64,000 nucleotides of DNA from Aspergillus flavus. Lineage: Eukaryota; Ascomycota; Eurotiomycetes; Eurotiales; Aspergillaceae. This document shows positions 120 through 48,451 of the stretch, piece by piece. The notes below the pieces were generated by a model. That model had not been told where the DNA came from. It saw only the letters and a program-made list of their open reading frames with translations, and ran no database searches. The translations under genes were made by a program, and so were the position numbers. The first letter of the stretch is position 1. The number at the start of each line of letters is the position of its first letter. The DNA is taken from NCBI RefSeq assembly GCF_009017415.1, contig NC_092404.1:806001-870000 (forward strand), given 5' to 3'.

Positions 120-896
120 TCAATGGTCATGCTTATGCTTCTTCGCAGTCACAATCACATCCGAATGAAGCGCCACACCGGCCTCCGTGACGATAGTGTC
201 CAACGGATCCCTTTTCAAGAACATCATTTCACAATGCTCCAAATGAGCCATATTATCATATCGATGTTCAATAATTGTCCCATGTTCTTTCGCCAGAAAC
301 ATCTTCTTCCAATAATAAGCACAGTGAACAAGATGCCACTGGTGCGTGGTGAAAAAGTGACCCCCTGTCTCAGGCAACATGGATACCTCCTCAAGAGAGA
401 GCACTCGTGTCTTATTCTTATCCCCATAGTATTGCCAGCTACCATCGGGGTTCGGACCCGCACGTTCAAACCGATCGATGAGCTCATCATTTCGGCACGC
501 TGGAGGTAGCCAGGCTGCAGCGAATGAATCGTACCGACATCCGTTGGCAATAGCCTCTGAGACGGTCTCGCCGCAGTTGCATGATATTGGTTTCAGAGAT
601 CGGAGGAACCAGTAGGTTTGGTATCCTATGTTCATGAGACCGATGCCGGCGAGGAGTAGGAGGAATGTTTGTTTGATAGGAGTACGGGCGAAACCCTCAC
701 AACGACGTCGTCTTCTTGAGCAATCGGGGGTGAGGTAGGTGTCGTTGACGCCATTCTCTGTTGATATATCTGCTTCGGAGTCTTGGGCCAGAGGGAAACC
801 AATATCGATACTCGGTCTGTCGCTGAGTGGCTTGTATTCCACCATCGGATGGCTTTCGCTTTGTGTTTTCAATACTTTGCTATCCCTTCCCAACAT
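120..896 (-). CDS. Membrane-anchored protein with two HxxHC motifs, divergent UstYa-like oxidase candidate
   Basis: Single exon, 258 residues. A basic stretch (RRRRRC, about 61-66) precedes one hydrophobic segment at about 76-97, so the protein is probably a type II single-pass ER/Golgi protein with a lumenal C-terminal part. The lumenal part opens with CGE-T-x-x-EA...GC (108-120), a signature seen in many uncharacterised fungal proteins, and ends with HLVHC (188-192) and HLEHC (218-222). Paired HxxHC motifs are the hallmark of UstYa/DUF3328 oxidases that crosslink RiPP cores in ustiloxin, phomopsin and asperipin pathways. The rest of the sequence differs from classical UstYa proteins, so this is a divergent relative rather than a clear orthologue. 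It is transcribed in the same direction as the repeat precursor about 0.8 kb upstream of its start, which supports a role in the same pathway. It lies at the window edge, so more pathway genes may lie to the left. Confidence 0.7.
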   Translation of the reverse strand: MLGRDSKVLKTQSESHPMVEYKPLSDRPSIDIGFPLAQDSEADISTENGVNDTYLTPDCSRRRRRCEGFARTPIKQTFLLLLAGIGLMNIGYQTYWFLRSLKPISCNCGETVSEAIANGCRYDSFAAAWLPPACRNDELIDRFERAGPNPDGSWQYYGDKNKTRVLSLEEVSMLPETGGHFFTTHQWHLVHCAYYWKKMFLAKEHGTIIEHRYDNMAHLEHCEMMFLKRDPLDTIVTEAGVALHSDVIVTAKKHKHDH

Positions 897-1730
897 CGTT
901 GAATTTTAATAGAGGGATGTGTGGCTCACACTATACAGTAGTTAAAGACTGTGGTATTGGTATGCTGCTATGGTGGTAGTAAAGGGCGGAGTGGCTAAAG
1001 GATCCTCTCTTCCACTCACCGGTCATTTGACTTCTGAAATGTACTAGTTACGCCTAGCATTTCATGCCTATACTTGATGACAGTAATGTCAGGGGTCCCT
1101 GACCGACTCTCTCTGCAAGTGGTCAATTGGTGCTCCTTGCATGACCTTGAACTCAGCTGAAGTGGTGCAAACCTGTTTTACAAAAGGACCTACTTGTCAC
1201 AGTCATAGCTACCAACAGTTGCGTCAGACAGATGGTTGGAAATCTCAACTGGAACTATACCAAGGGAGTTAATGGTGCGTTTCGTGCAATATGGAACTAT
1301 ACCTTTGCTCGTTGGTATGATCGTATATAGCAAGGTGTATGTCGATCAACATCTTGTGTGTAATATCGAGAAAACAGCCTACGAGAGTATGGCTTGCCAC
1401 AGTTTCTGTACAAAACGAATGCGAAGCACTATCTATACGTGACTAAAGAGAACAGGATAATCCCGCAATGTTGCATTTGCAGTGGCATTTTTCATGCGTA
1501 GCTAACTAAAGGCAAAGAGGCTCTTGGACAACCTTCGACATGACGGGGCAATCGACCAGCCAGATCAGAACACTTGAACTTGCATATTAAGAGCATTTCT
1601 GAAACCAAAAGAAAAAAAAGTCGAGTAACAAAGAAAAGGATCGTATAAAGTTTGTTGCAAGATCATCGTCACATTCTAAAGTCATTCATGCTTTCGTAAA
1701 TTGGCACTCTGAGCTTCGTCATTGGCCCAT
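897..1730. other. Intergenic, no gene seen
   Basis: Non-coding stretch between the divergent HxxHC protein and the repeat precursor. Only short open frames without coding character are present. It should hold the promoter of the left gene and the 3' UTR of the precursor gene. Confidence 0.6.
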
Positions 1731-2243
1731 TCAAGGATAGAAGGGAATAGCCTCGGCGTCTTCGCTCCGCTTTGGGTAGTAAGGAATAGCCTCGGCGTCT
1801 TCGCTCCGCTTTGGGTAGTAAGGAATAGCTTCAGCATTCTCACTACGCTTCGGGTAGTAGGGAATGGCCTCTGCCTCCTCGCTGCGCTTGGGGTAGTAAG
1901 GAACAGCTTCAGCATTCTCACTACGCTTCGGGTAGTAGGGAATGGCCTCTGCCTCCTCGCTGCGCTTGGGGTAGTAAGGAATAGCCTCCGCGTCCTCACT
2001 ACGCTTCGGGTAGTAGGGAATGGCCTCTGCCTCCTCGCTGCGCTTGGGGTAGTAAGGAATAGCTTCGGCATCCCCACTCCTCTTGGGGTAATATGGAATG
2101 GCCTCAACCTCCTCCGCAGCTGGGTAAAGCATTTATGAGTACACATTGATCGAGAAGTACGAGAAGGAGTCCTTACGAATTGGGGATGCCAGGGCCAGTG
2201 GAAGGCCGATAGCAAGCAGCACAGTAAAAATCTTGAACTGCAT
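1731..2243 (-). CDS. Kex2-repeat RiPP precursor with ten AIPYYP-type cores (dikaritin-like)
   Basis: Two exons: 2243-2177 encodes a signal peptide starting MQFKIFTVLLAIGLPLALAS; a 57-bp intron (2176-2120, GTAAGG...CCCAG) follows; exon 2 runs 2119-1731. The phases agree and give 151 residues. After the signal peptide the protein is only repeats of 13 residues, SE(E/D/N)AEAIPYYPKR: nine units end in YYPKR, and a tenth ends the protein as AIPFYP with no KR. KR is a Kex2 site; acidic spacers and a Tyr-rich core just before KR mirror PhomA (core before KR), UstA and AprA. The likely core is AIPYYP or a trimmed form. Units 1 (VEAIPYYP), 6 (AVPYYP) and 10 (FYP) vary. The flanking HxxHC proteins fit oxidative Tyr crosslinking. 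The product is unknown to me. A plain secreted Kex2 peptide without crosslinks is the main alternative. Confidence 0.85.
1744..2118 (-). repeat. 39-bp tandem repeat array coding the peptide cores
   Basis: In-frame 39-bp tandem units inside the precursor gene. From 1821 to 2054 the units come as three near-identical 78-bp dimers (starts 1821, 1899, 1977), alternating an SEN/SED unit with an SEE unit. Two 39-bp units at 1744-1821 are identical to each other. This shows amplification by recombination or slippage at both one- and two-unit steps. Confidence 0.9.
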
Positions 2244-2936
2244 TTTTGGAGGCGGAGAAGTTAGGGCTCAACAGCGGGAGATAAGTCGGACCGGGTAGTT
2301 GTGGCGTTTTTGCACGGACTTGTGTTTGACAGATGTTTCGATGTCTAACGCCATGTTGGACACACGAAGGCCTAATCTTATACCTTAGATTCTAATCACA
2401 AATATCTGCCATGCAAGGCTTCAGCCGGAGCGGGGTGGAGTATATTCACTCCATGGCACGGTACGTTGGCAAGCCAAAACCACCCCTTACTCGCCGCTTC
2501 CCTTGCTTGCTTTTTTCTGTCGCTGCACAAAACGTCATATAACAAACATCACACTGAGAGTTTTAGGCGGTGTGGTCGGGTACCCTGCTAGTACCCCTCT
2601 TTGACTTTTGCAGGGTGCTGAAATCGTAAGGGGTAAGGCCATCAGGAGCTGGATTTCATCATAGTTGGCATACGGTGAAGTCCGATGCGAGGCCAAATAC
2701 GTAGTCAACCAGCAGCCAGCCACTTCTCACAAAGATAACTACCCCTCTTTTCTTGCTCTAATCGACCATCATCATATCCAAATCGGAATCTCGAAGGCTT
2801 ACTGGGTCCCTTTCTGTTGCGGTGAACAAACAAGCAACCGGCAGTTGATTCTCGGTCTGCGGTTGAGCCCTTGAAATATAGGTGAAGTTGGTCTCTTGAC
2901 TATCCTTCCCATCTTTCAATCAAGCCGAAACATATC
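2244..2936. promoter_or_regulatory. Divergent promoter between RiPP precursor and UstYa-like gene
   Basis: A 693-bp gap separates the two divergent starts, so both genes may be controlled from one region. On the minus strand a TATAAG element lies at about 2376-2381, roughly 135 bp upstream of the precursor start. A CGG-N6-CGG direct repeat at 2568-2579 could be read by a Zn2Cys6 factor; no regulator gene is adjacent. These motif calls are weak. Confidence 0.4.
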
Positions 2937-3950
2937 ATGTCGCACTGCCAACTCAAAGAGACGGCAAGAACATCCATCGATGGGGAGGGCGGCTTTTGTA
3001 AGGGTGACAGCGAAAGAGATTCCGAGAGGGGTCTTCTAACTGACTCCCTGCCAGCGGAGTCAGGGAATTATTGGTCCTGCTCTGGTACTGAAAGCAAGAG
3101 ACCTCACTGTTTGAGTCTTTGGATTATATGTTTGAACATCCTGATCTTCAGTGCCTCGATCGTATTCCTCTTATCACCACTCTCCAGCCGGGCCTGCCTC
3201 AGCCATCTCAGCGATCAGGACAAATGGAAAGCAACCTCATACTATGGTGAGCTGATACCACAAATAAGTGTCACAATCGAAACCATAGACTAAGTCTGCA
3301 CTTCAGCTCCTATACTAGAAAGATTTGACATCCCGCGCGTCGTGCTAACGACGAACGGCTCATTGTATGACTCCGAGCCGCCCTCAATTATGCGCATCCC
3401 TCAAGGCGATGAAGCCGATGCAGAGTGGTCCAGGATAAGCTCTGGAGTATTCCCAATCCTGATCTCGGCGGAAGAGGTCCGCAAGTTAGGCAAAGACCCG
3501 GCACTAGCAGTCCGAGTCCCCGATGAGTTTGGTTATGGGCCTGATGCATACCTTGCACAAACAGAAGTTTTCCATCTCCTCCACTGTCTTGACATGCTGC
3601 GCAAAGAGATTTCTTACGAGCACTACTATTACCCAGAGTTCGGAAACAATCCCGATGCCCAGCACACGGCTCATATTACTCACTGTATTGATATTCTGGC
3701 TCAATATCTCAAATGCCAAGGCTCTACTGACGTGATTTTGTTCAATTGGGTTGGAGGTTGGGACCAACCTTTCCCAGACTTTATGAACAAACATGTATGT
3801 CGTGACTTTGAGGCACTGCTGGCGTATGTGAACGAGAACTCGCTTGCGACAGAAGTCTTTCAGAAGATGAAAGAGCCACCCGATGGTTACCCGGTGCAGC
3901 CCGATCCTTCAATAGCACCATTCGTTCCTACAGCTGTTCCTGGAAGTTAA
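2937..3950 (+). CDS. UstYa/DUF3328-type oxidase
   Basis: Two exons, 2937-3246 and 3307-3950, with a 60-bp intron (GTGAGC...CTTCAG); the phase fits and gives 317 residues. A soluble acidic N-terminus precedes one membrane segment (about 59-80). The lumenal domain carries HLLHC (193-197, followed by LDMLRK) and HITHC (226-230, followed by IDILAQ), the two metal-binding HxxHC motifs of UstYa proteins, plus the usual KDP...DEFGYGPDAY approach. Family members perform oxidative macrocyclisation of Tyr side chains in fungal RiPPs (UstYa/Yb, PhomY, AprY). Divergent to the AIPYYP precursor, so it is the prime candidate for crosslinking that core. The layout is close to that of AprY elsewhere in this window. 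Confidence 0.88.
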
Positions 3951-4218
3951 TATAACATTGTAGTGTTCGAAAAAAATACCACTATTAATAACACCATGCC
4001 ATTGAAGTGATATGCCTGTTGAGTGAAATAATAGCAAGTAGACGAGGACACAAAAGGAGAAATGCTAATATGATAGCTCAAAGTTCATTGCTAAGATGTA
4101 GATGGAGTAGTTATCGGAGATGTCACGGCGATTTCTATGCAAATTCTGCTGTGTATCTTCCCCTGAATGCACAAATATTGTGCTTATCTATGTCTAATTC
4201 TCAGCTCAATTCTCGACA
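3951..4218. other. Short intergenic gap, 3' ends of convergent genes
   Basis: Between two convergent stop codons; AT-rich. No gene seen. Confidence 0.5.
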
Positions 4219-4808
4219 CTATTGCACCTCAACAGATGTAGAGTAGGTATCCTTGCGGGCGAATAGACCAGTATAGGTGCAGCCTTTCCACTCGCATTCA
4301 ACACTGCCAGCGTGACGTGCTCTACAGTAATGAACAGTTAGGTATCTCATGATTAGACAGGGCAAAGGTAGAAAAGGGAAAGCTACCTTGCTTTCGATCC
4401 TCTGAGGCGGGCATCCGGTCTCCGAGTGCGGGTCTTGGGTACTGTCACTGTCATAGAAGGTTGCTTAATGGATGAGACAGCATTGGGGTTTGTTGGAGGA
4501 GATTTAAGAGGTAAAATATTGTCATTGTCAATCACTTGTGGGCCAGATGTTGCGGCTGTTGCAAAGTCCAACGGTGTGTCATTAGCTAGCCAAGTGTCCG
4601 CGCCATTTCTAGGGCTGGTAGAGCGCACAGCATACCATGTTTCAGGCGAAGACAGGACTGGCAATGCATTTGACTTCATTAAGGGAGGTCTGTCCGGTGG
4701 AGACGAATTCTCGGGGTACGGGAACACAGTATGGGATGTGTGGCTCTCGTCCTCACTCCCATTTACCCACGGACCTGCCCAGCTCCTGCTGTACGGATCG
4801 GACGACAT
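4219..4808 (-). CDS. Hypothetical protein with C-terminal half of a C2H2 zinc finger
   Basis: Two exons, 4808-4387 and 4321-4219. The 65-bp intron (GTAGCT...CTGTAG) has a CTAAC branch site 17 nt before the acceptor, and the phase fits. I start at the second Met (MSSDPYSRSW); an in-frame Met nine codons upstream (4835) is possible. The first 150 residues are low-complexity and rich in Ser, Pro and Thr with a basic RTRRPDARLR stretch. The second exon encodes CEWKGCTYTGLFARKD, which matches the Cys half and RKD helix start of fungal C2H2 fingers (CxWxGCxYxGxFxRKDxLxRH), but a stop codon follows before any zinc-binding His. It may be a truncated or decayed transcription factor. Function is unknown. 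Confidence 0.5.
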
Positions 4809-4835: not shown

Positions 4836-5969
4836 GGACGAGAATAACTAAGGAGAACTTGGGTTTTGTGAGGATGAGACGGGCAATTGAAGCATGATGA
4901 ATATGAGGAAGCGATTAAATGGGGAACGGGGCTTTATACACGAACATGGCTGGGATTGAAGTTTTGTATAGAACACACGGCTAGGGCAACAAGAATATGG
5001 CTTTAAGGTTTACCATAAATCCTCATACATGATATGTAACGGGCCAATCACTGTACTACGTAACGGGCTTCGCTCATCTCAGCCACTAGGGCGATTAAGT
5101 AGAACGCACTATTCCAATTTTGGGTCTTCTGACCCAAAAGGAATAGAAGACCCAAAATTGGAATAGCGCGGTAATCGCAATACTGGGCTGGGAACATATG
5201 GGGAAGTTGGAAGTGTCTTGCTTCTAGGGCTATCTCAGCCGATCTCACCTCAGTAGTACTTCTCTATTTCTTTTTCACACTCATGTAAACCGATTTCCAT
5301 TCTTACTAACCTTGGGGGACAGAGGACACCATCAATCTAGACTTCCGTGCACTGATTATCTTTCTTCTCTGGCTGTTGTTTCACGTATTTCCACTTCTCT
5401 GCGCCAGATTCCCAAGAATCCCCACCGTTTGAATTTTGCCTCGCATTGATACTTCCTGCGCATCGTTCAATATCTGAGGCATTTCCCATCTCACCATAAC
5501 TCGCTATATCAAAACCAGGCCAGAGCAGCCAAAGCAGTCTTCCTGGCTCGAGCTATGTATTAAATTATATCCATCATCTTCTAGTTTGTGGACATATGAT
5601 CTGACGAAGCCACATCTGCAAGGGTAATCCATTGTCCTGAGGTCCCAAACCCTAGTGAACTTTCATCATATTGCAGATTTTAGAAGACATACTCCAAGTC
5701 TGAACACATATATGAAGAGATAACCACTCATCTTGAGTCATGGCCGTTTCATAGTGTTTCCGTGGGGTCCTATGGCCTAAGAGGCCTCTAACCTATTCTC
5801 TGTTATATTTGTCTTCTTCGCAGTATGAAGTCGTATACACGCCAAGGAAGTTGGTGGATTTGATCTAGCCTCTTTTGTCTGGCTTCTAGATAGGCAACTT
5901 CGGCGCTTTTCTGTAGAATTCATATGGCCTCAAGGTTGCTATAGTTGCCATTTTCGAGGGAGAATCATC
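4836..5969. other. Intergenic, contains a hairpin; no gene seen
   Basis: No open frame with coding character or splice pattern was found. A strong inverted repeat (5105-5170) is listed separately. The right part is 3' flank of the aminotransferase gene. Confidence 0.5.
5105..5170. repeat. Long inverted repeat / hairpin
   Basis: Arms 5105-5130 and 5145-5170 are complementary over 26 bp with a single mismatch (A5108 opposite C5167), separated by a 14-nt loop. The perfect inner arm is ATTCCAATTTTGGGTCTTCT. The loop GACCCAAAAGGAAT is itself a near copy of part of the arm. It could be a miniature foldback element, an intergenic terminator-like hairpin or a small-RNA source; no target-site duplication is obvious. 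Confidence 0.8.
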
Positions 5970-7283
5970 CTAAGCCTCGAGTGCAGCCATAATTCTCCGT
6001 ACAGCCTCGCTCAGATACTCTTGAGGTTGTGAGAAGACTATTCTATACCATCCACCACGCTCCGAACCGAACAACGAGCCGCTAGCTAAGAAGACTTTCT
6101 TCTGTAATAAGAGATCCATGACCGTTTCACTGACTTCCTCAACGTCCTTGACCTCAGGGTGTAGTTCGCGATACTTCTTGCCCAGATTCATCCAAATGAA
6201 GAATGCGGCGTTGGCTCCAGTCGAATATTCAATACCGTTACTCTTGAGCTGCTGCACAACGAACGAATAGTTCTCCGAGAGCTTCTCGCGGTTCAACCGA
6301 ATATATTCATCCGTAAAATTGACGTCTTCAAGCAAGAGAGATACCAGATACTCTGAGACCCCCGATACGTAAGAATATAGACCAACATTCCTTAATGCAG
6401 CCAGGATGTCACGATTGGTTTGTGAGATGATAACGCCTAGTCGGAGACCATTGGCGCCAAAGTCCTTGCTCACGCCCCATAGTACATGAACAAGCTGGGG
6501 ATCAATGATACCCGTCAGATCAAGCGAAAGGGCAGATTCAAAGTCGACAGGCTTCGGACTCTCGTCAACGGTATTCTTCCAGACGGACAATGCATAAATC
6601 TCGTCACTGATGAAGTGCATCTGGTATTTTTGGCAGAGTTCCATCAACTTCAATAGCACGTCTCTGGGGTAGCATCGCCCTAGTGGATTGTGAGGATGGC
6701 AGAGTGCCAGCCCCTTTACTTTCCGTCCTGTCGTCTCCTGGAAACTCAACAGTGCTTGTTCATACTTCTGGACTGCCTCCAAACTGAACGGATCACAGTC
6801 ATCAAAGCTCACGGGGATAACGGTTGCTCCAGGTCGCAATGATATATCCGGTATGAATGTCCCATAGTACGGTCTTCCCAGAAGAATTGCCTCACCAGGT
6901 TCCGTTATAGCCCAAGACACATGCTCGATTGCCGACGAAACACCGTTGGTAATAAACAGATGACTAGGCTCCACCGGATGGAAGGGACGGAAGTGTCTGT
7001 TAACAAAAGCAGACACAGCACGTTTAACTCTCCCTGACCCAGTAGGTCCATCATTATACGTGAGTAGCTTGGCAGGCAGGTCGAGTTGCCGGTTTATAAA
7101 ACTCAGCAGGTGATCGTGCATCAGGACATTCTCAGCAACGCCCACATTCACGTATCCATTGGGGTTTGTCTTTTCGCACCATAGGTCATTCATCACGTCC
7201 CACATCAGGTTCTTTGAACCTGCTACTAGAGCGCTCTGTGCCCTTTGGGAGATGGTTGAATGTGTTGTTTCTGGCAGCGACAT
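5970..7283 (-). CDS. PLP-dependent class I/II aminotransferase, ACC-synthase-like
   Basis: Single exon; start set at MSLPETTHST (7283), giving 437 residues, because the in-frame upstream extension to 7397 is a Ser/Leu-rich stretch unlike the family. The fold type I markers are all present: YNDGPTGSGRVKRAVSAF near the N-terminus, GRPYYGTF, HPHNPLGRCY, SDEIYAL (Asp-Tyr pair that binds PLP) and the Schiff-base lysine in SKDFGANGLRLG. SKDFG..GLR.G and the overall spacing are closest to 1-aminocyclopropane-1-carboxylate synthase-like proteins, a broad fungal group that mostly acts as aminotransferases or lyases in secondary metabolism rather than as ethylene enzymes. The substrate is not predictable. 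It is separated from both neighbours by more than 1 kb, so no operon-like context helps. Confidence 0.88.
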   Translation of the reverse strand: MSLPETTHSTISQRAQSALVAGSKNLMWDVMNDLWCEKTNPNGYVNVGVAENVLMHDHLLSFINRQLDLPAKLLTYNDGPTGSGRVKRAVSAFVNRHFRPFHPVEPSHLFITNGVSSAIEHVSWAITEPGEAILLGRPYYGTFIPDISLRPGATVIPVSFDDCDPFSLEAVQKYEQALLSFQETTGRKVKGLALCHPHNPLGRCYPRDVLLKLMELCQKYQMHFISDEIYALSVWKNTVDESPKPVDFESALSLDLTGIIDPQLVHVLWGVSKDFGANGLRLGVIISQTNRDILAALRNVGLYSYVSGVSEYLVSLLLEDVNFTDEYIRLNREKLSENYSFVVQQLKSNGIEYSTGANAAFFIWMNLGKKYRELHPEVKDVEEVSETVMDLLLQKKVFLASGSLFGSERGGWYRIVFSQPQEYLSEAVRRIMAALEA

Positions 7284-9109
7284 TGTGGGTGGTGGAACAC
7301 TTAGAGAAAGCGAGCAAGGGGAGAAAGAAAGGGTATAGTGGTAAACGAATACCGAATACGACAGGTACTCTGCAAGGTTTATATTGCTGAATATCAAAGT
7401 TCTTTCTAGGCTGAGTCAAATTGACAAAAGAATTGGGTATACTTCCACAACCGACTTCGGCGTTATGACGGTTACGGACGGTTACATTCGGGTGGATCTC
7501 CGAGGAATGACCGAGTCACCGAGATTTTATCGTCCAATGAATTCGAGAACCCTCAAAGTCGTATACGTACAGACTCGACTTGCTCTATAGGCTATTTTCA
7601 ACTGTATAATACCGCTAAAAAAGGCCTAAGTCCTAACATAGGTCATATATGTGCGTATTTATATACAAAAAGCGTATTAAAAATTAAGGATTTTCAATTC
7701 ATGACTATGTCGAGACCCACTTAACCCCATTCCTTATGAGACTAGGGCAGGCAAGACCATAGCCCTATTCATTCCTAACAGGTGCAACCCTTAATCGCAC
7801 TGGCTAGCTCACGTCGCCGTTCCCCAGGGACTCCCCCATGGCCACCCCCAAAGGGAAGGCAACAAGTTGAGAACAGCACTGTTTACAGCGTGCTCTGCTA
7901 TTAGTGATAGAGTACACATTTTGATAGTCCCAACCTTTCCCACCTGGCGGATATATAATAGTACAGTTCGCAAAATTAGTGACCCTTGGCGGCAGGTTGA
8001 AAGGTGTTACTGTGGCAATGTGACTTTGAGCTAAATGCACCTCCCAGGCCAATATCAACATCATTCAAGAGGCGACAATGTCTCACTGAAAGCAAAGTAA
8101 GAGTTCCAGGACGACAAGCCGTCAAATAGTCTAAAGTTCGGCAACTCCCATGAATTATCGGCAACAGCTGAAGTACTAGCTTCCATATCCAGAGGCCAAG
8201 CATCTAGAATACCCTCCACGACACCTGTAGAAACTCCGCGACAAGGATCTCGGCTTGAATCGGGAGCTGGAATGATACATATTGTTGGGGTAAACTAAGC
8301 TTGCATGGCTACTATCATCCTTTGGGTATAGGATATCCTGGAATAATCTATACATCATGATCAGGAAGCCCTCTAAGCCAACGTGTCTGATATCTAGTAC
8401 TTTGAGCGAAAGCTTCTGTACGCTTCAATCCTTGCCCTACCAAACATGATTTTATACTATACTTTTAAAGCCCTCCTGTACTGGAGCTACGAAGGAAAGG
8501 CTGATACCGAAGTTTATATGATCTTGATGATCCAAGAAACGTCCATTTATTTTCCACCAGAACTAGACATGAGTGAGGCTGACGTGAAAATAAGAAGAAT
8601 GCACTCGCAGGAGACTCCGCATATTACAGTCAAGCTCTTTCCTTGAAAAACCTCGGTACTTAACGATTTATGTCCTGCTGGTTCGGAACAGGCAAACTGT
8701 ACATTCTGCTCGAGACCTAATTGTTGATTTGACTCCAACATGCACCTAAGCTTGTGTTACCGCAGTGCATTGCATTGCTATATAAGAGGTGCTTCAATTG
8801 CAACACGTCAACCAATCTGAATTGCAGGACGGCACAGCCTGGTCTAAGCCCATATGAGCCAACCCGGGCAAATGCTGCATTCAAGCTCAAAGCGGGGTAC
8901 CTGTATGATAGTCTGACTACGCCTCACGTTGTTGACTTCCTTCCTTAACCACCCACAAAGGCTATATCCAAGTCCCAACGTTTTGATTGCGATATACCGC
9001 ACCTCTCCCCTTGAATCAAATTACATTGCCTAGTGAAAGGTCAGTATATTAACACCTTTGCAGGACACCAAAGAAGACTATCAGGCTGATCCTTCGATCC
9101 TCCGCCGAG
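7284..9109. other. Gene-poor interval, nothing recognisable
   Basis: About 1.8 kb with only short incidental frames, no conserved protein motifs and no clear terminal repeats. The first few hundred bases should be the aminotransferase promoter. The middle (7600-8450) is AT-rich and could be old decayed repeat sequence, but nothing positive supports that. Confidence 0.5.
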
Positions 9110-19773: not shown

Positions 19774-21450
19774 TCACGACCAAATCAAAGATATCTTGCT
19801 CCAGACAACATTCGGCCTCACGTTCCTTTCCCTCTTCATAGCCTCCAACCTAGCCCACGTCTCCGCCTCAGCATCAACCTCCTCAACACCAGATCTCAAA
19901 TCCACATCCTCAGGCCTATAAACCCATGGATCCTTCCTTCCAACCGTCAACCTATGCCCAAAATAAATAGCCAAGAAAAGCGGAATCCCAAGATACGCCG
20001 TCAAAAACCCACTCGCCGAAAACCGCCCTGGAAAGAAAACCGTAAACCCATTACACAACAACAGCGCCGCAAAAACAAACAGACAAATCCAAGCCGCGAG
20101 CGGCTGGATATTCGAACGATAGGGCATGACGATACCCTGGGCGTTGCAGGCCTTCCGGAACCGGAGGAAGATGAGACAGCATGTAAGCCAGGATGTGTAT
20201 CCTGATGTGTTGGTGAGACAGACGAACCAGTTGAAGACTTCGCCTGCCTGAGAACCGGCGTTGAGGTAGGCTAGGAGGGTGAAGCAGCTACTTCCTAGGA
20301 CGGCGTAGATGGGTAGACCGTAGTTGGTGCACCGGGCGAAGATCTTGGGTGCGCTGCCTGCGACGGCGAGGGAGTAGAGCGCTCGGCTGGACATGTATAG
20401 GTAGGCGTTACCGGCGGACCAGGCGCTAGTGAGGATGCAAGCGTTGATGATGGATGGGAGGGCGGTTATGCCTGCGTTGCGGATAGCAATGACCCATGGG
20501 GAGGCGTTGGCGTCGCCGGTGTTGGATGTCAGGCCTTTGGCGTTTGAAGGACAGGTCACGCCCATGGAGAGGGTGCCCAGGATGTAGAAGACGACAAGTC
20601 GACCGAAGTAGCGGCGGGATGCTTTGGGGAGGTTCTTGCGTGGGCTTCGCATTTCTCCACCCGTGAATACCATCAGCTCGGGGCCGAAGAAGAAGGAAAA
20701 GCCGGACCAGACCCAGACGTAGAGGAAGGAGGTGAAGCGGCCGCCGTTCCCAGGGACTATGTAGGCGTTTGTTGCGCCGGGGTCATTCCAATATCGGAAT
20801 CCGAGTCGGTCGTGAGTGGGTGCTCCACCGAGCATGATGATGAGGGATAAGATGATCATCCCGATTATCATGATTACTTTGATGCCTGCAAACCAGAATT
20901 CGGCTTCTGCGTAGACACCTACTGGACAGAGGTTGAGACCTACGATGACGACCAGAAGGACGGTGACCCATAAGGCGATATGAACGTTGTTTGGCCAGTA
21001 GTTGATGACAAGGCTGGCAGCCGTGATCTCGTAGGCGACGATGATACCAAACGAGTAGAAATAGAGCCAGCCTAAGGCAAAGCCGAGGGATGGCGAGACG
21101 TAGCGGCTACAGTAGTATGCAATTGACGACCCGGGGATGGGAAGGTACGTGCTCATTTCAATCACTGCAGTGAAAACACCGTAGACAAGGAGGGACATAA
21201 GTCCATAGGCAAGGAGAAGGAAGCCTGGTCCTCCGATTGCAAGCGCCTGGCCAGCACCAACGAAGAAGCCCGTGCCAATGGCACCGCCAATGGCCATCAT
21301 TTGAGCATGCCGAGACTTGATGTTTCTTTTTACTCCAGCCCGCTCAATATACTGGCCAGCCGAGCAACTTTCGACCTTTCCGAGATCAAGGGCCTCTTTC
21401 TTCCCAATAATATTCTCATCAGAGTGTGGTGGACCAGTGGTCTCAGCCAT
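19774..21450 (-). CDS. Amino acid permease, AAT/YAT family
   Basis: Single exon, 558 residues. It has a hydrophilic N-terminus, then a 12-helix APC-superfamily core. The first helix carries HAQMMAIGGAIGTGFFVGAG, the family fingerprint that unwinds to hold the amino group of the substrate. Other family marks are EMSTYLPIPGSSIAYYCSRYVSPSLGFALGW, GEMRSPRKNLPKASRR and NTSGYTSWLTCC. It resembles fungal Gap1/Put4/Agp-type plasma-membrane amino acid-proton symporters; the exact substrate cannot be read from sequence. It points away from the monooxygenase gene and shares a promoter gap of 609 bp with it, so it could serve the same metabolism, but this is only context. Confidence 0.9.
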   Translation of the reverse strand: MAETTGPPHSDENIIGKKEALDLGKVESCSAGQYIERAGVKRNIKSRHAQMMAIGGAIGTGFFVGAGQALAIGGPGFLLLAYGLMSLLVYGVFTAVIEMSTYLPIPGSSIAYYCSRYVSPSLGFALGWLYFYSFGIIVAYEITAASLVINYWPNNVHIALWVTVLLVVIVGLNLCPVGVYAEAEFWFAGIKVIMIIGMIILSLIIMLGGAPTHDRLGFRYWNDPGATNAYIVPGNGGRFTSFLYVWVWSGFSFFFGPELMVFTGGEMRSPRKNLPKASRRYFGRLVVFYILGTLSMGVTCPSNAKGLTSNTGDANASPWVIAIRNAGITALPSIINACILTSAWSAGNAYLYMSSRALYSLAVAGSAPKIFARCTNYGLPIYAVLGSSCFTLLAYLNAGSQAGEVFNWFVCLTNTSGYTSWLTCCLIFLRFRKACNAQGIVMPYRSNIQPLAAWICLFVFAALLLCNGFTVFFPGRFSASGFLTAYLGIPLFLAIYFGHRLTVGRKDPWVYRPEDVDLRSGVEEVDAEAETWARLEAMKRERNVRPNVVWSKISLIWS

Positions 21451-41541: not shown

Positions 41542-42042
41542 TGAGGGATAGGAAGATGAACTGAGAACCCGAAACGACAGCCGAATTAGACGATAGGGAG
41601 AGTAAATCCGAAACGGAAGGTGAAATAACGTAGCTCCGGTGAAGAATACCCAGATAGTCAGTCAGAAGGGCAGTATGTTGCATGGTCTAGACGCTAGGGT
41701 TATGCAAGGGTCTCGGGGCATCTTTTGTTGGCTACTTTCCACTGTGATGTGTCGGTCACTGACCGACAAACGACGCCAAGCGCCCATTTCTGTCTTGATA
41801 TGGCCAGCATCAATGATCGACAGTGCATGCATGCCCCTCAAAGTCACCCGAAAATGGCGGTCCTCTTTTGGGGTAACCCTCGTGGATGTGGACATTCGTT
41901 ACACACGGAGATCCAAAGCCCCCTTGCTAGTACGTCTGTCTAGCTCGTGACAACGATATTTGCCCATCCATCTCACCCCTAGTATCCCCTTGTCTGTATA
42001 AATACTCTCTACGGTTGTGGATGCTTGCCGTTCCGCAAAACC
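41542..42042. promoter_or_regulatory. Divergent promoter of ABC transporter and aprR
   Basis: 501 bp between divergent starts. TGTATAAATACTC at about 41995-42007 gives a TATAAATA element some 40 bp upstream of aprR. Confidence 0.5.
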
Positions 42043-42988
42043 ATGACTATCAAAGTGATTGTTGTTGGCGCCGGTGGAAACCTCGGCCATCACATCGTCT
42101 CTGCCCTTGACGATGACCATCGCTTTACGGTTACTATTCTAGCCCGAGCTTCATCCAAATCCAAATTCCCTTCCCATATTACTGTGCACCGCGTGGACGA
42201 CTATTATCCCGAGCTGGAAGTAGTTGAAGCATTCAAAGGCCAGGACGTTGTCATCTCAACTGTGACCACGGGAGCCATTCAGCGACAGAAAACGCTTATC
42301 GATGCAGCACTAAAGGCAGGTGTTGGACGTTTCATTCCTTCGGAATTTGGCCATGACACTCGCAATGGCAACGCCTCGAAGATGTTACCCCAAATGTACC
42401 AACAAAAGAGGGAGGTTGTGGAGTACCTGCGAGCGAAGCAGAACGACGGGCTTGAATGGACAGCATTCGTGACAGGGCCGTTCCTTGAAGTGTTTGTTCT
42501 GCTTTCAATCACCGAATGGCTAGAAAGAACTGACAGTAGATAGGGCAATCGAGAATTTCCTGGGCTTCAACCTCAGCCAGCAACACGCCACCATCCTCAA
42601 TGAAGGATCGGATCGCTGGTCAGCCACTACTCGTGCCACCGTCGGTCTAGCGGTCAAGAACTCCCTGTTAATTCCTGAGAAGACCTCAAACAGATACCTA
42701 TTCATTGATACAGTGACAGCTTCCCAAAATGATGTACTTCTGGCCTTGCGGAAGATGACCGGTACAGAATGGGGCGTGGACTATGTGGATGCGGAGGAGC
42801 AGAAACGTGTTGCAATCGAGCACCTATCCAAAGGGCGCCTCATTGGCATTCCAATGTTGATGAGGTACATCACTTGTGTTCGTGGCTATGGCGGAGATTA
42901 TCTAGATTATGAAACAAGTGCGAACGAGATACTTTCCCTGCCCGTCAGGAACGTGGATGAGGTTATAGCTAGTATTCTGAAAGGTTGA
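42043..42988 (+). CDS. aprR: NmrA/isoflavone-reductase-like NAD(P)H reductase of the asperipin-2a cluster
   Basis: Two exons, 42043-42491 and 42544-42988; the 52-bp intron uses GTTTGT and ends in GATAG; the phase (2) joins GPFLEV to AIENFLGFNL, giving 297 residues. Other GT/AG pairs break the frame. N-terminal NADP-binding VIVVGAGGNLGHHIVSAL, then RFIPSEFGHDTRN, the PSEFG motif of the isoflavone/pinoresinol-reductase group, and FLxxAIENFLGFNLSxxxATI. In the published asperipin-2a pathway a reductase of this family (AprR) acts with AprY and AprT. The name rests on family, position and the AprA core in the same cluster. Confidence 0.85.
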
Positions 42989-43178
42989 GTCCGTACAATG
43001 ACATGGCTTTTTCCGATGGAGAGGAAACCACGCTTATGTAGCTCAATATTACACGTGGCCCTCAGGAAAGGAGGGAGATGGGAATAATGTGAGAGAGAGT
43101 CCTGCGAGTGTGCAATATTCCATCCTTCTCTTGATGTGCAAGGGCCCAAATTGAATCCTGTCCACGGATGCTGAACGT

Positions 43179-44737
43179 TCAATGCGTGCTACCACTGGAG
43201 GCGTTTTCCGATCGCGGAGGCAGTCTCAGAATCCCCAGTACCAGTGCTATCAAGGCCAATAAGAAACTAACTATCAGCCAGGGCAACCCAATCCAAAGTC
43301 CTCCTCTCCCCAGTCCCCAGTTCAAACTATTGGTAATATACAGACTTGCCGTCACTTCGCCTATAGATTGCGTTGCCTCGATGAGGGTATAGAGACGTGC
43401 AGTCTCCTCTCTTCTAGCCAGACCTGTAATTAGCCCTCTAGCTATAAGGACAAAGCCTGCCCCACCTGCGTGTAGAAGCAGACTCGGTATCAAAGTGTTG
43501 ATGGAGGATGAAAGACCAATCCCGAACAGTCCAAGGGCGAGGAGCATGACACTGATTCGTGCTAGCAGGAGGTCTGATTGCAATCTTGATATATATGCGC
43601 GAAGTCTTTCGGATATCTGGGGCAGAATGAAAAACAAAACCGGAATTGTGAACGCATGTTGAAGCGCCACGAGGAGAGTAGCATCTGCAATAGTCCTATG
43701 GAAACGTATGGAGATGTATTGAACTAAGAATGCAGAGCCACCGGCCAGTTGGGTTACGAAGAATGCCGGCAGAATTACTGCCACTGGGTAATTGTAGCAG
43801 ATGAATCGATATGACCAAATCGTCTTCTTGATTCTAAAAAAGAGCGAAGTCAGAGAGACGGAGGTGTCCGCTGAGATGGTTGTCTCCGGAGACTTCTTCC
43901 TCAATGTCTCTGGCAGAAGGTTCGCGACGAGTAGCCCGGCGAAAAGCAGTCCACAGCCAGTCATGAGTGGGACTCGAGAATCAAATTTCATGACAAATGA
44001 GCTGGTAACGTTAGCAAGAAAGCCTGCCGAGACAGTGGCGATCCCAAAGCGAAGGATTACTGTGTCTCGTTCGGAATCAGCCGTCGCATCGGCTATCATG
44101 GACCAGAAAAGGGCGAATAAAAGAACCGGACCACCACCTAACACCCAGCCTACGGCACCAAACCACATCGTACGCAGTGGAAAGATATTTGGAAGCCATA
44201 TTGGAGCGAACGACAAAACCGAGTTGAACACGAACCCGACACTAGCCAGGCGGATAGCCAGCTTGCGTCCATAACGATCGGCCAGCAAGCCATACGGAAG
44301 GGCGAAGGTCGAAGCTGTCAATGTATTAACTACCCGAAGTAGGAGGTCTGGGATCAGGACATACTCAGGAAAGCATTAAAAAACTCCCTATACCCAATGA
44401 TAGTGGTTACCTCTCTTTGCACTTCGGGAATCTTGCACATTCCCTCCGAGATCTGTTCTGGACCCGGTAGCTGACTTGGGTCATGAGCATTCCAGTAATT
44501 TCGACAAGCGATAGACTCTACGATTCTCGTCAGTGGACTTTGAATCATTGGGCCGCCCATGCCAATGGCTAGGTATATCACGAATAGCTTGATAATCAAT
44601 CCGTGGTTGGAATGCTTCTGGAAAGGTATATCTGAATTCAGTGATTCTGGACTTTCATCATCTACTCCTGGTAGGAATGGAGCACCTTCGCCATCCGAGG
44701 GATCACTGTGATGAGAGGCCAGTTCAGGGGAAGCCAT
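43179..44737 (-). CDS. aprT: MFS transporter of the asperipin-2a cluster
   Basis: Two exons, 44737-44365 and 44314-43179 (50-bp intron GTATGT...GACAG), joining FLT to STFALPYG; 502 residues. A hydrophilic acidic N-terminus precedes a 12-helix major facilitator core. MFS motif A is GLLADRYGRKLAIR in the loop between helices 2 and 3. The N-terminal half has a large loop (CRNYWNAHDPSQLPGPEQ) between helices 1 and 2, common in fungal MFS carriers near RiPP clusters. Likely role: export of the cyclic peptide. It converges with aprR (190 bp between stops) and lies 574 bp from the 3' end of aprY. Confidence 0.87.
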
Positions 44738-45311
44738 TATGGATATTTCAATGAGTACAGATCAGCCAAGTCTAGTTTCAAGATGGGATTAATTGAGACT
44801 TTGCAAGTTGTGTGCGGGCTGAACTAATAAAAAGAGCTCTTGGGCACTGATTCAGAAACCGAGCCGGCAGTATTACCATTACCTGGCAATACCTTGTTAC
44901 CATTTACTGCAGTTGATGCAGATCGAGGAAGTACATATGTACAAGGTTCACTATGCTTGATCTATTTCAATAGTAGTTAAATGGCTGCGACTTCGTGGCC
45001 CATGTAAGGGGTGGACCGGTCTGCAGCTTGCAAGGACAGGACGGACCATAATCTCTCACCGCTCCTCAACTTTACTGTATACCGCTTCTTGCTTGCTCTT
45101 CCGAGGGCAGGAAAGAAAATTCACGACAGGCCACGACATAATATTATCTAACCTTGCATTCTTCACGGTTGATTAATCGCCTACTAGGTCATAGTACAAT
45201 ACAGATAGACAGCAATGAAAGGCAATACTGGAATCAAGCTTCAATACAGCTCCATTTAAGTTCAATGTCACTCAACCAAGTCGGACGTATTACGCATCTG
45301 CAATATGGGAG
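44738..45311. other. Intergenic between aprT start and aprY end
   Basis: 574 bp; promoter of aprT. No gene seen. Confidence 0.5.
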
Positions 45312-46459
45312 CTATTCGTGCCTTTTCGTATGTTGGTGTCCAGCCTGCCCCAGAACCCCCTCTTGCTTTTGATGTTTACCCAATTTCTCCCCAAGTTCCG
45401 ACTCCCGGTTCTCCCAAGGTGCAGGCCACACATAGGCATCGTGGGGGATTGGCATACGGTCAAACTTTCCAGCATCCACAGAATTCTCTAGTTGCCACTT
45501 GTATATGGCTTCGAAATCTCTACATTTGCGATTAACACTAAAGTCAGGCCACGGCTGCGTGCGACCTTCCACCCAGGCCAAGGTGATTACCTCGGTGTTG
45601 GCATTGCACTGGATGTTTTGCAGCAGGATGTCAACACAGTGGCCCAAGTGTGTCCACCGGCTCGCGTGGGTGTTGTTAGCATCGGTATGAGCACCAGTCG
45701 GCACATATCCGGGATAATCGTGGAAAGCAGCTTTGCGCAGCATGTTCAGGCAGTGGATTTGCTGAAAATCCGACATTGGTTGTTAGCAGAACAATAACAC
45801 TTTGATCTCGGCTGATATCTATTCAGAGCACTCACATGCATCACGTCCAGCTGAACCATATAAGCATCGTCTCCAAACCCCCAATAGTCATTGTCAAAGC
45901 GCATCACAGTATCTGGGTCCTTTCCCAACCTCAAGATGTCCTCGCGAGAGACAATGTGCGTGCGGATGGTCTCATATTGTTCCCAATCAGCGTCGTTCTC
46001 CGGGCCGGGCTCTTCGCGTGCAATCGACACCTCTGGTTTAGCAAAAAACGTTCCGTTGAGTGTAGTCTCGTAGGTGGGGATTTCAATAGCGTCGAGAATT
46101 GGTGCTATGAACCTTTATGTTAGCCATTCATAGGAGTATCCGCCAATCGAGAATAACGGCACAAGAAACTCACACCACCATGAGATTGGTCGTAAGTCCG
46201 CATTCTTGCCCGCGTAAAGCTGACAGTGAGAGGTAACAATCATAGACACAGTGATTCCAAGAATAATGAGATTCGTTATAGTCAACAGGATCCAAATACG
46301 AGACTTAAATATTACTGTCTCTCTCTTGAGCCGTTCATCCATCAGCAAGTGTTCTTCGTATTTGCCTGCGAGCTCATCATCACTGGCTGATGAAGAATCA
46401 AGTGGATGAAATCGGTGATATCTGCGAAACGACTTGAAAAATTTAGAGAAGGGCTCCAT
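45312..46459 (-). CDS. aprY: UstYa-type oxidase of the asperipin-2a cluster
   Basis: Three exons: 46459-46174, 46104-45836, 45761-45312; introns 69 and 74 bp (both GTGAGT donors), phases agree, 334 residues. Type II topology: cytosolic head, membrane segment about 55-76, lumenal domain. The second intron splits the first metal motif; splicing restores HQIHC (185-189, then LNMLRK), and HLGHC follows at 223-227. KDPDTVMRFDNDYWGFGDDAYMVQLD precedes the motif as in other UstYa proteins. AprY is reported to install the two ether crosslinks of asperipin-2a on FYYTGY. A charged C-terminal tail (GKHQKQEGVLGQAGHQHTKR) is longer than in the related oxidase near the left edge. Confidence 0.9.
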
Positions 46460-47617
46460 ATTGCAAAGTTGTCTAAAGGGCTTCCGTACTTGGTATGGTG
46501 GAAAGACAGAAAGAACGAAATAAAAAGAATCTTTTGGTGAGCAGGGTAGGTCTCCTCGTAGTCTAAAGCTTTAAAAGACTCGCACGCAGCCAATCGAAGA
46601 AGAACAGTCAATGAAACAGAAAGCGAGATGCGAACTGGAGTGCTTCTAAGGGCCCGGAGAAGGGTTTCTGGGTCTCATGACTTGTAAGAAGTCCCTTGCA
46701 GCCGCGATCTCATCGGATTCCTTTGCACTTGCATCCCATTGTCCAACTTTCAGGGCTTTAGCGCAACAGCTGCTCATCTCTGACGTATGGCTCGATTGAG
46801 TCAGATCATGCAGCATATCCGGAGTGAATTGGCTGACTGGTAGTTACACTTTGGTAGGTTTTGTAAGACACGCCTCAACGCACTAGGCAACTTAATCGCA
46901 TAAAGCTGCATGTCTCACACCGTAATATAGCGCCATACGTTCACAGAGATGTGATAGACTTTTATTTCCAAATTCATGCGCTGTGCTGGTTACACGATTC
47001 GGTTTTCATTTTCATTCTTTCCATCAGTGTTCAGTCACTGCAGTCATTAGTATTCACACTTGTAGTGGCACGTTTGTGGTAGACGCCTTCAGTAACGCCG
47101 ACAAGAACAAATAATGTTGCCCATTACACTTGCTCTCAGCGTAAAAGCAGGAGCGCTCGGGTCACATTTGTACCGTAATTGTCTCAAACGGCAGATACCG
47201 TAAAACCGGTCAGCAAGTGAATATTGTCGGTCAAGAAAGCGTCATTTGTGGCTGGCTGAATGCACTGGTATGTATAGTTTACATAGTCCAGACGCATGTC
47301 CTTATCCAAGCCTATATTGACGCTATAGCTGCATATACGTGTTACATGTGAATCTTTCTCTGTAAATTACTTTCTCACATGACCCTAACCCTTGCCGCTG
47401 AGCGTGTATAGGTGATGAACTTGCCTATCCTTATGGCGGCCTCAATATATAAAGAGGCCTGTTATACCTACATCCATCTCTAGGGCCATCGATCAGAAAG
47501 GAAACCCTTTCTTAGTGTTCTTCCTTGAATCCGAATCCTCCTTTGTCTATTGCTCTAGAAACCTATAACCACTCGCTATTAGCGAAGTCTTATCATTTTC
47601 ATCAATCTTCGGTTAAG
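46460..47617. promoter_or_regulatory. Divergent promoter of aprY and aprA
   Basis: 1,158 bp between divergent starts, without any gene signal. A TATATAAA element at 47446-47453 is about 165 bp upstream of the aprA start. No cluster-specific regulator gene is visible nearby. Confidence 0.55.
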
Positions 47618-48451
47618 ATGCATCTCTCGCGCTACATCGCTGTACTGTTGTCGGCATCGAGCTTTGTCTCTGCTCTTCCACTTCAAAATGATGTGATCTC
47701 CGACGACGGATCTAAGCCCATAGATGCGATAATGGCCACCGCAATGGAGCACAAGGTAGTTAACCCGGAGAACCTTGATGCGACCCCTGCAACCCCTGAG
47801 AACCCCGAGGATCTTGACAAACGATTCTACTATACCGGCTATAAACGTAACGCTGAGACCCCTGAGGATCTTGACAAACGATTCTACTATACCGGCTATA
47901 AACGCAACGCTGAGACCCCCGAGGATCTTGATAAACGATTCTACTATACCGGCTATAAACGTAACGCTGAGACCCCCGAGGATCTTGATAAACGATTCTA
48001 CTATACCGGCTATAAACGTAACGCTGAGACCCCCGAGGATCTTGACAAACGATTCTACTATACCGGCTATAAACGCAACGCTGAGACCCCTGAGGATCTT
48101 GACAAACGATTCTACTATACCGGCTATAAACGCAATGCTGAGACCCCTGATGATCTTGACAAACGATTTTACTATACCGGCTATAAACGCAATGCTGAGA
48201 CCCCTGATGATCTTGACAAACGATTTTACTATACCGGCTATAAACGTAACGCTGAGACCCCTGAGGATCTTGACAAACGATTCTACTATACCGGCTATAA
48301 ACGCAACGCTGAGACCCCCGAGGATCTTGATAAACGATTCTACTATACCGGCTATAAACGTAACGCTGAGACCCCCGAGGATCTTGATAAACGATTCTAC
48401 TATACCGGCTATAAACGTAACGCTGAGACCCCCGAGGATCTTGACAAGTAA
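47618..48451 (+). CDS. aprA: Asperipin-2a precursor peptide
   Basis: Single exon; start at MHLSRYIAVLL (47618), giving 277 residues. The frame opens 31 codons earlier, but the second Met begins a clean signal peptide, MHLSRYIAVLLSASSFVSA. A leader (about 20-68) is followed by eleven 19-residue units FYYTGYKRNAETP(E/D)DLDKR; the last unit ends in DLDK before the stop. Kex2 cuts after KR on both sides of FYYTGY, and carboxypeptidase trimming frees the hexapeptide, which is the published core of asperipin-2a (a bicyclic Tyr/Phe ether peptide of A. flavus). All eleven cores are identical at protein level; only the spacer varies (two PDD units). There is no intron, unlike the other precursor in this window. 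Confidence 0.96.
   Translation: MHLSRYIAVLLSASSFVSALPLQNDVISDDGSKPIDAIMATAMEHKVVNPENLDATPATPENPEDLDKRFYYTGYKRNAETPEDLDKRFYYTGYKRNAETPEDLDKRFYYTGYKRNAETPEDLDKRFYYTGYKRNAETPEDLDKRFYYTGYKRNAETPEDLDKRFYYTGYKRNAETPDDLDKRFYYTGYKRNAETPDDLDKRFYYTGYKRNAETPEDLDKRFYYTGYKRNAETPEDLDKRFYYTGYKRNAETPEDLDKRFYYTGYKRNAETPEDLDK
47822..48448 (+). repeat. 57-bp tandem repeat array, eleven units
   Basis: Eleven 57-bp units coding the asperipin core and spacer. Silent site patterns (aaacgT/C, accccT/C, gaT/C before AAA) run in the same order in units 1-4 and 8-11, which shows that a four-unit block of 228 bp was duplicated; units 6-7 share their own variants (AAT, GAT, TTT). Confidence 0.92.

Follow-up and report, generated by a model that had tools for sequence, protein, structure and literature searches.

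In a 64,000-nucleotide stretch of the Aspergillus flavus genome (NC_092404.1, positions 806,001 to 870,000; hereafter the window), three adjacent genes at 120–3950 encode a precursor with Kex2-type repeats and, on either side of it, two proteins that each contain two HxxHC motifs. We consider it probable, from the features described below, that this triad is an orphan UstYa-type (dikaritin-like) locus for a ribosomally synthesized and post-translationally modified peptide (RiPP), reduced to three genes. An original prediction, made from the DNA letters, had proposed this layout and class, and both are borne out by our gene models. The left gene (120–896) lies downstream of the precursor gene (1731–2243) on the same minus strand, whereas the UstYa gene (2937–3950) is divergent, on the plus strand, with a 693-bp promoter region (2244–2936) between it and the precursor gene.

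The Precursor and Its UstYa Neighbor

Once spliced, the precursor (2243–1731, minus strand) comprises 151 residues, a hydrophobic N-terminus followed by ten 13-residue units. Exon 1 (2177–2243) encodes the signal-peptide-like N-terminus MQFKIFTVLLAIGLPLALASPI, and exon 2 (1731–2119, with its stop codon at 1731–1733) encodes the units, of the form x-E-A-[IV]-P-[YF]-Y-P; they are separated by a 57-bp intron (2120–2176, GTAAGG...ACCCAG). This splice model (2176–2120), which gives the 151-residue product predicted originally, was picked from many candidates because its sites are canonical and it aligns with the precursor of a paralogous locus, in which the intron recurs at the same position. The 39-bp repeat array was also found independently by Tandem Repeats Finder. 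Eight units have the core IPYYP, one has VPYYP, and the final unit has IPFYP. Ten units are thus present as predicted, but a Lys-Arg (KR) site follows only nine of them, the tenth running directly into the stop codon. The second core Tyr is invariant (10/10 units), and codon variation in the core is mostly synonymous: both Pro and the Ala change silently, the last Pro being spelled by four codons, and one spacer position alternates between Glu, Asp, and Asn. Because the core codons vary in this way and the introns recur in the paralog, we ruled out a chance repeat or a wrong reading frame.

The right protein (2937–3950), of 317 residues after excision of the intron at 3247–3306 (GTGAGC...CTTCAG; position common to the paralog), is a UstYa protein (PF11807, E-value 3.1e-54), with positions 14–220 of the 220 in the profile matched in the genome search. 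Its first exon (2937–3246) is predicted to encode a cytosolic N-terminus and a hydrophobic segment (hydropathy maximum 2.61), and its second (3307–3950) carries the PF11807 domain, with HLLHC at residue 193 and HITHC at residue 226. The features expected of a Kex2-repeat precursor in a dikaritin locus are therefore found together: ten units with nine KR sites, a hydrophobic N-terminus (the signal peptide being judged from hydrophobicity), Tyr in every core, an adjoining PF11807 gene, and an HxxHC pair in both neighbors.

A Second Triad in the Same Genome

We searched the genome (37.7 Mb, eight contigs) with the left protein, which returned eight places including itself, and with the precursor, which returned IP[FY]Y precursors at two loci only, the window and C3, one per triad. 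On C3, at 40 kb, lies a second complete triad in which order, strands, and intron positions are as in the window, with 74% identity for the left-type protein (over 185 residues), 55% for the precursor, and 69% for UstYa; the C3 precursor has seven units and an IPFY core. In both triads, the precursor intron follows a signal-like SPI and the UstYa intron follows (Y/H)Y, provided that splice choices consistent with each other are used. In a DNA comparison between 6 kb of the window and 10 kb around the C3 copy, matches covered the three genes only; no clear promoter block was shared between the two, the longest match being 13 bp with one mismatch. The scanned open reading frames (ORFs) flanking the C3 triad correspond to LOR, DUF3632, and dynamin, and the oxygenase and aminotransferase that neighbor the window triad were not among them. 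As far as these sequences were compared, the biosynthetic unit is the three genes. The suggestion that the locus might run past the left window edge is accordingly unnecessary, since the C3 locus shares three genes only, and we rejected the need for genes to the left of the window on this comparison.

Among the eight left-like places, a PF11807 gene lies within 5 kb at three (the window, C3:40 kb, and C3:4.26 Mb), and a repeat precursor in the roughly 10-kb stretch inspected at three (the window, C3:40 kb, and C8:740 kb). Taking the 8 left-like places, a rounded number of 20 UstYa genes (34 exon matches), and a distance of 5 kb, 0.042 co-locations of left-like and UstYa genes would be expected and 3 were seen (P about 1e-5), an estimate that serves as a guide only, because tandem duplication could also pair related genes. 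At the C8 place (C8:736001–746000), a left-type HxxHC gene at 4033–4740 (minus strand) is accompanied by a three-unit Kex2-repeat precursor, DDGAIRIPVKGVPEPEKR, at 5738–5995 (plus strand).

The Left Partner and Its Family

The left gene (120–896) is a single exon encoding 258 residues (read from 896 to 120), with HLVHC at residue 188 and HLEHC at residue 218, and its product gave no PF11807 or other Pfam match above the gathering cut-off. A database search with it, proposed in the original prediction, returned 68 matches, 44 of which carry an organism name, all of them fungi, the other 24 being unnamed. The fungi include Aspergillus, Paecilomyces, Polytolypa, Emydomyces, Knufia, Cadophora, Lachnellula, Colletotrichum, Monosporascus, and Biscogniauxia. 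The HxxHC pair is kept in 63 of the 68 matches. We aligned the window protein with 61 of them, leaving out P0001 (a fusion), P0021 (short), and P0041, P0064, P0067, P0068, and P0069 (fewer than two HxxHC motifs); the invariance of the motif columns in this alignment is a product of that selection, and the 63/68 is therefore the fair count. In the same alignment, left-type proteins from Colletotrichum and Xylariales have about 42–46 residues between the HxxHC motifs, against 30, and one of them is named DinB-like at source.

The structural model of the left protein has a mean predicted local distance difference test score (pLDDT) of 80.3, with values above 90 over much the greater share of the folded region; it shows a helix at 73–99 and places the two motifs on helices 185–205 and 216–227. 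Two left relatives from the same genome reach PF11807 over the HxxHC pair, with E-values of 0.0034 and 5.1e-5.

Homologs in Other Fungi and Conservation of the Core

Protein searches with the precursor, also proposed originally, identified four homologs in all. In Aspergillus steynii, P0001 is one predicted protein with IPYYP units at its start and a left-type protein at its end, and is probably a gene-model fusion. The locus tag of the Polytolypa precursor P0070 comes directly before that of the left homolog P0033, their contigs being of equal size, and the Cadophora precursor P0002 and left homolog P0036 likewise come from contigs of equal size, a sign of linkage. For the remaining precursor homolog, P0071, no link to a left homolog was seen.

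The IP[FY]Y core is common to the A. steynii, Cadophora, and Polytolypa homologs. Across six precursors, [IV]P[FY]Y occurs in 36 of the 37 units counted, these being the units that fit the pattern [IV]P[FY][YC], with three degenerate units outside it left out; Glu-Ala directly precedes the core in 33 of the 37. The original prediction took two adjacent Tyr as the hallmark of the core, a definition that we reject: because the C3, Cadophora, and Polytolypa precursors have IPFY, what is conserved in these sequences is Ile-Pro followed by an aromatic residue and the second Tyr.

In the tree of the left family, Aspergillus arachidicola has an ortholog of each A. flavus left copy (P0003 grouping with the window protein, to which the left ortholog is 93% identical, and P0013 with the C3 protein, both with support 100/99), and the duplication is therefore older than the split between these species. 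For this tree P0041, P0064, P0067, P0068, and P0069 and the precursors P0002, P0070, and P0071 were left out, and of P0001 only the left-type portion was retained. The window and A. steynii proteins, both from loci with IPYY cores, fall into a supported set of 18 (96/90), and those from IPFY loci (C3, Polytolypa, Cadophora) fall outside it. From these few data points, it looks as if FY were the older form and YY had arisen in one Aspergillus line; the IPFYP of the last unit in the window precursor would fit a relic of the FY form.

A Proposed Route to the Product

Trimming by Kex2 and a carboxypeptidase is standard for the repeat precursors of such loci. The precursor would enter the secretory pathway, where Kex2 would cut after KR to release units like SEDAEAIPYYP-KR, from which a carboxypeptidase would remove the KR. 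Dipeptidyl or other aminopeptidases might then trim the xx-xA-EA spacer to leave IPYYP or a close form. The core put forward originally is AIPYYP; the constant Glu-Ala before Ile, seen in 33 of the 37 units, hints that the mature peptide starts at Ile (IPYYP) and not at Ala. Such trimming to Ile is a weaker proposal than the Kex2 cut because the spacers depart from the strict STE13 signature (XA or XP dipeptides directly after the Kex2 site): the first dipeptide is Ser-Glu in about nine of the ten units, the second unit having Ser-Gly and the first starting with Ala-Glu, and the sole constant spacer dipeptide is the last one, Glu-Ala. The trimming proteases would be encoded elsewhere in the genome, as is said for asperipin-2a.

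By analogy with characterized systems, UstYa and the left HxxHC protein would then act as lumenal copper oxidases on the IP[FY]Y core. The UstYa-family enzyme CctR is described as binding two copper ions, using O2, requiring the His and Cys residues of HxxHC, and residing in membranes of the secretory pathway, in the part of PMC12435403 that deals with it. Ring closure in ustiloxin and phomopsin is given as lying between the side chains of Tyr and Ile, in the portion of PMC7329392 on these compounds. Such closure and the conserved Ile-Pro-(Phe/Tyr)-Tyr together suggest that the second Tyr would be cross-linked to a further side chain, that of Ile (by analogy with ustiloxin and phomopsin) or that of the aromatic neighbor, with a loss of at least 2 H.

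Comparison with Known Systems

Epichloecyclin loci (GigA) also combine a repeat precursor with a UstYa-type enzyme, but their core differs. Ustiloxin B shares with the triad a repeat precursor, two HxxHC oxidases (UstYa and UstYb), and Tyr and Ile in the core; it differs in that its cluster has 15 genes including a tyrosinase and a peptidase, both of its oxidases belong to PF11807, and Tyr precedes Ile in its core, whereas Ile precedes Tyr here. Phomopsin is alike in the action of UstYa-family enzymes on a core with Tyr, Ile, and Pro, and unlike in that its cluster, as portrayed in the relevant section of PMC7329392, contains five DUF3328 genes and a tyrosinase. Among the neighboring ORFs scanned we found neither tyrosinase nor peptidase, which define the ustiloxin/phomopsin type in the narrow sense, and the core is IP[FY]Y, not YxI. 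Judged by these sequence features, the locus is of dikaritin type, and its gene content sets it apart from the ustiloxin and phomopsin clusters. The same genome also holds an ustiloxin-type precursor of the VEDYAIGIDKR type at 4.10 Mb (C5:4100001–4110000, 2236–2931, plus strand), with VEDY in 16 pieces and two UstYa-type genes.

Asperipin-2a resembles the triad in its secreted Kex2-repeat precursor, its UstYa oxidase, and the fact that no peptidase gene is reported in the text of PMC8703953 devoted to it. In contrast, its FYYTGY core has KR on both sides and is served, according to the corresponding section of PMC12048977, by one UstYa protein with a reductase and a transporter, whereas the triad has an IP[FY]Y core and two HxxHC proteins, and neither reductase nor transporter was found adjoining it. 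The asperipin-2a genes of A. flavus are listed as AFLA_041370–041400 in that part of PMC8703953. An asperipin-2a-type cluster lies about 38 kb from the triad within the window (42000–48451): its precursor (47618–48451, plus strand) has 11 FYYTGY cores and 22 KR sites, PF11807 pieces are found at about 45483–46303 (minus strand), and reductase- and transporter-like genes, judged by eye, lie leftward. The cyclochlorotine hydroxylase CctR, finally, has the same HxxHC...HxxHC arrangement and membrane-anchored lumenal architecture but hydroxylates a nonribosomal cyclic peptide, as set out in the CctR passages of PMC12435403.

As in the original prediction, the core could not be matched to a known product: its letters are absent from the searchable open-access papers, and no fungal paper was found by title for the core letters of the IP[FY]Y precursor in the open-access literature, which does not cover a 2016 Aspergillus survey. 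That survey, by Nagano, is reportedly the main one for the genus, with over 40 core types, and the precursor may already be listed, as a sequence, in it or in supplementary tables. The pairing with a partner that Pfam does not recognize may be the part that is new.

Genomic Neighborhood and Other Precursors

As originally stated, no P450, tyrosinase, or transporter adjoins the triad in the neighboring ORFs scanned, including 10 of the window ORFs of at least 200 residues, although split small exons could escape such a scan; the nearest transporter-like ORF is at 19777. The genome to the left of base 1, inspected as had been proposed, encodes a 2OG-Fe(II) oxygenase at 1.5 kb (C7:796001–806000, ORF 7576–8541, minus strand), the nearest enzyme gene on that side, and, about 7 kb beyond the left window edge, a DDE_1/HTH_Tnp_Tc5 transposase (same region, 1557–3206, plus strand). 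The nearest enzyme gene to the right of the triad is an aminotransferase gene (5973–7280).

Elsewhere in the genome, we observed two further ORFs of interest, each in the vicinity of a UstYa gene: a repeat precursor made up of eight SKEKYDVYDVPDKR-type units (C6:3506001–3516000, 7222–7581, plus strand) and a precursor-like ORF with Tyr/Gly-rich YGNYGNYGKY blocks parted by KR (C1:805501–815500, 2747–3379, minus strand). A UstYa-rich cluster with five HxxHC ORFs within 7 kb lies in C5:112001–122000, where no repeat precursor was seen in the scan.

Weighing the Alternatives

Several observations speak against the interpretation that we favor, most of them concerning the left protein. The profile of PF11807 is reached at E-value ≤ 1 by only 7 of 62 left-family members (best 0.0059), which makes the link to UstYa weak by sequence, and the DinB_2 profile by 12 of 62 (best 5.3e-6), the window protein not being among the latter. 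When the left family was compared with UstYa by hhalign, exactly the two motifs were aligned (E-value 0.0024), but with a probability of 12% and over 49 columns. The family has no sequence match in the PDB, and a Foldseek search with the left model gave 24 matches at E-value ≤ 10, the best at 1.4 and none at 0.001. The membrane topology foreseen for both partners is weaker than stated for the left protein, whose hydropathy maximum (1.31, against 2.61 in the right protein) is marginal, though the model places a helix there. For the right exon, the model obtained from a single sequence had a mean pLDDT of 36.6 and was not used. To these may be added one Polytolypa unit that reads IPFC and the departure from the STE13 signature, Ser-Glu being the first dipeptide after KR. 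We read the left protein as probably a divergent, and at best distant, relative of UstYa; of the UstYa-like pair predicted originally, the right member stands, and the left has no Pfam UstYa match.

The Glu-Ala spacers, present before the core in 33 of the 37 units, resemble the EA/DA spacers of alpha-factor, and STE13-type spacers are tied to unmodified peptides and absent from the precursors of cyclic toxins and epichloecyclins in the relevant pages of Le Marquer et al. (PMC6339444). The precursor could on these grounds yield secreted peptides that stay linear and unmodified, in the manner of hormones or pheromones, with the HxxHC genes serving another task. We regard this as unlikely, however, because the triad occurs twice in the genome, with hints of linkage in three further fungi, and because DUF3328 genes are enriched next to Kex2-repeat precursors and almost never adjoin mating factors, by the analysis in the part of Umemura (PMC7329392) on gene neighborhoods, which counts a DUF3328 neighbor for 1758 of the 7878 Kex2-repeat precursors that it surveyed in fungi. 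A division of labor is possible, if doubtful, in which UstYa would act on Tyr and the left protein would modify Ile/Pro, for instance by C–H hydroxylation or desaturation, so that the product would be oxidized more than once or otherwise than to a simple Tyr ether. In its favor, the remote left-like gene on C8 (42% identity) adjoins a precursor whose three units lack Tyr, C8 has no PF11807 match in the genome profile search, and hydroxylation, chlorination, and desaturation are reported for UstYa relatives in passages of PMC12435403 and PMC10512285. Should this pairing be genuine, Tyr would not be a necessary target of left-type enzymes; but C8 is a single locus, its precursor and enzyme are tied by position alone, and its protein is remote, with a long branch in the tree.

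A larger cluster that takes in the 2OG-Fe(II) oxygenase or the aminotransferase, the closest enzyme genes to the left and right, seems improbable, given that the 10 kb compared at C3 have LOR, DUF3632, and dynamin ORFs nearby instead and that DNA matches cover three genes only. Still less probable is a decaying or silent locus without product: in its favor are the missing KR of the terminal unit and the transposase to the left of the window, but reading frames and motifs are all intact, core variation is mostly synonymous, and the left ortholog in A. arachidicola is 93% identical.

Significance

Dikaritins with a known product are few, five by the count in the pertinent section of one 2022 review (PMC10512285). 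We tentatively suggest that the triads might represent a separate, ancient branch of fungal RiPPs, spread over several ascomycete classes, in which UstYa and a Pfam-unrecognized HxxHC oxidase would form a fixed pair on IP-aromatic-Tyr, the latter acting on Ile-Pro; mining by PF11807 only would then miss half of the enzyme set as well as loci with this partner alone, such as that on C8. If the left partner is an oxidase, profile-based mining overlooks a family that numbers at least 68 proteins. The three-gene set, with two copies in one genome and relatives in other fungi, is compact enough to serve as a clean test of HxxHC oxidase function, and its two copies offer a natural comparison between YY and FY. 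Moulds of the A. flavus group contaminate food, which makes the chemistry of this orphan peptide worth knowing.

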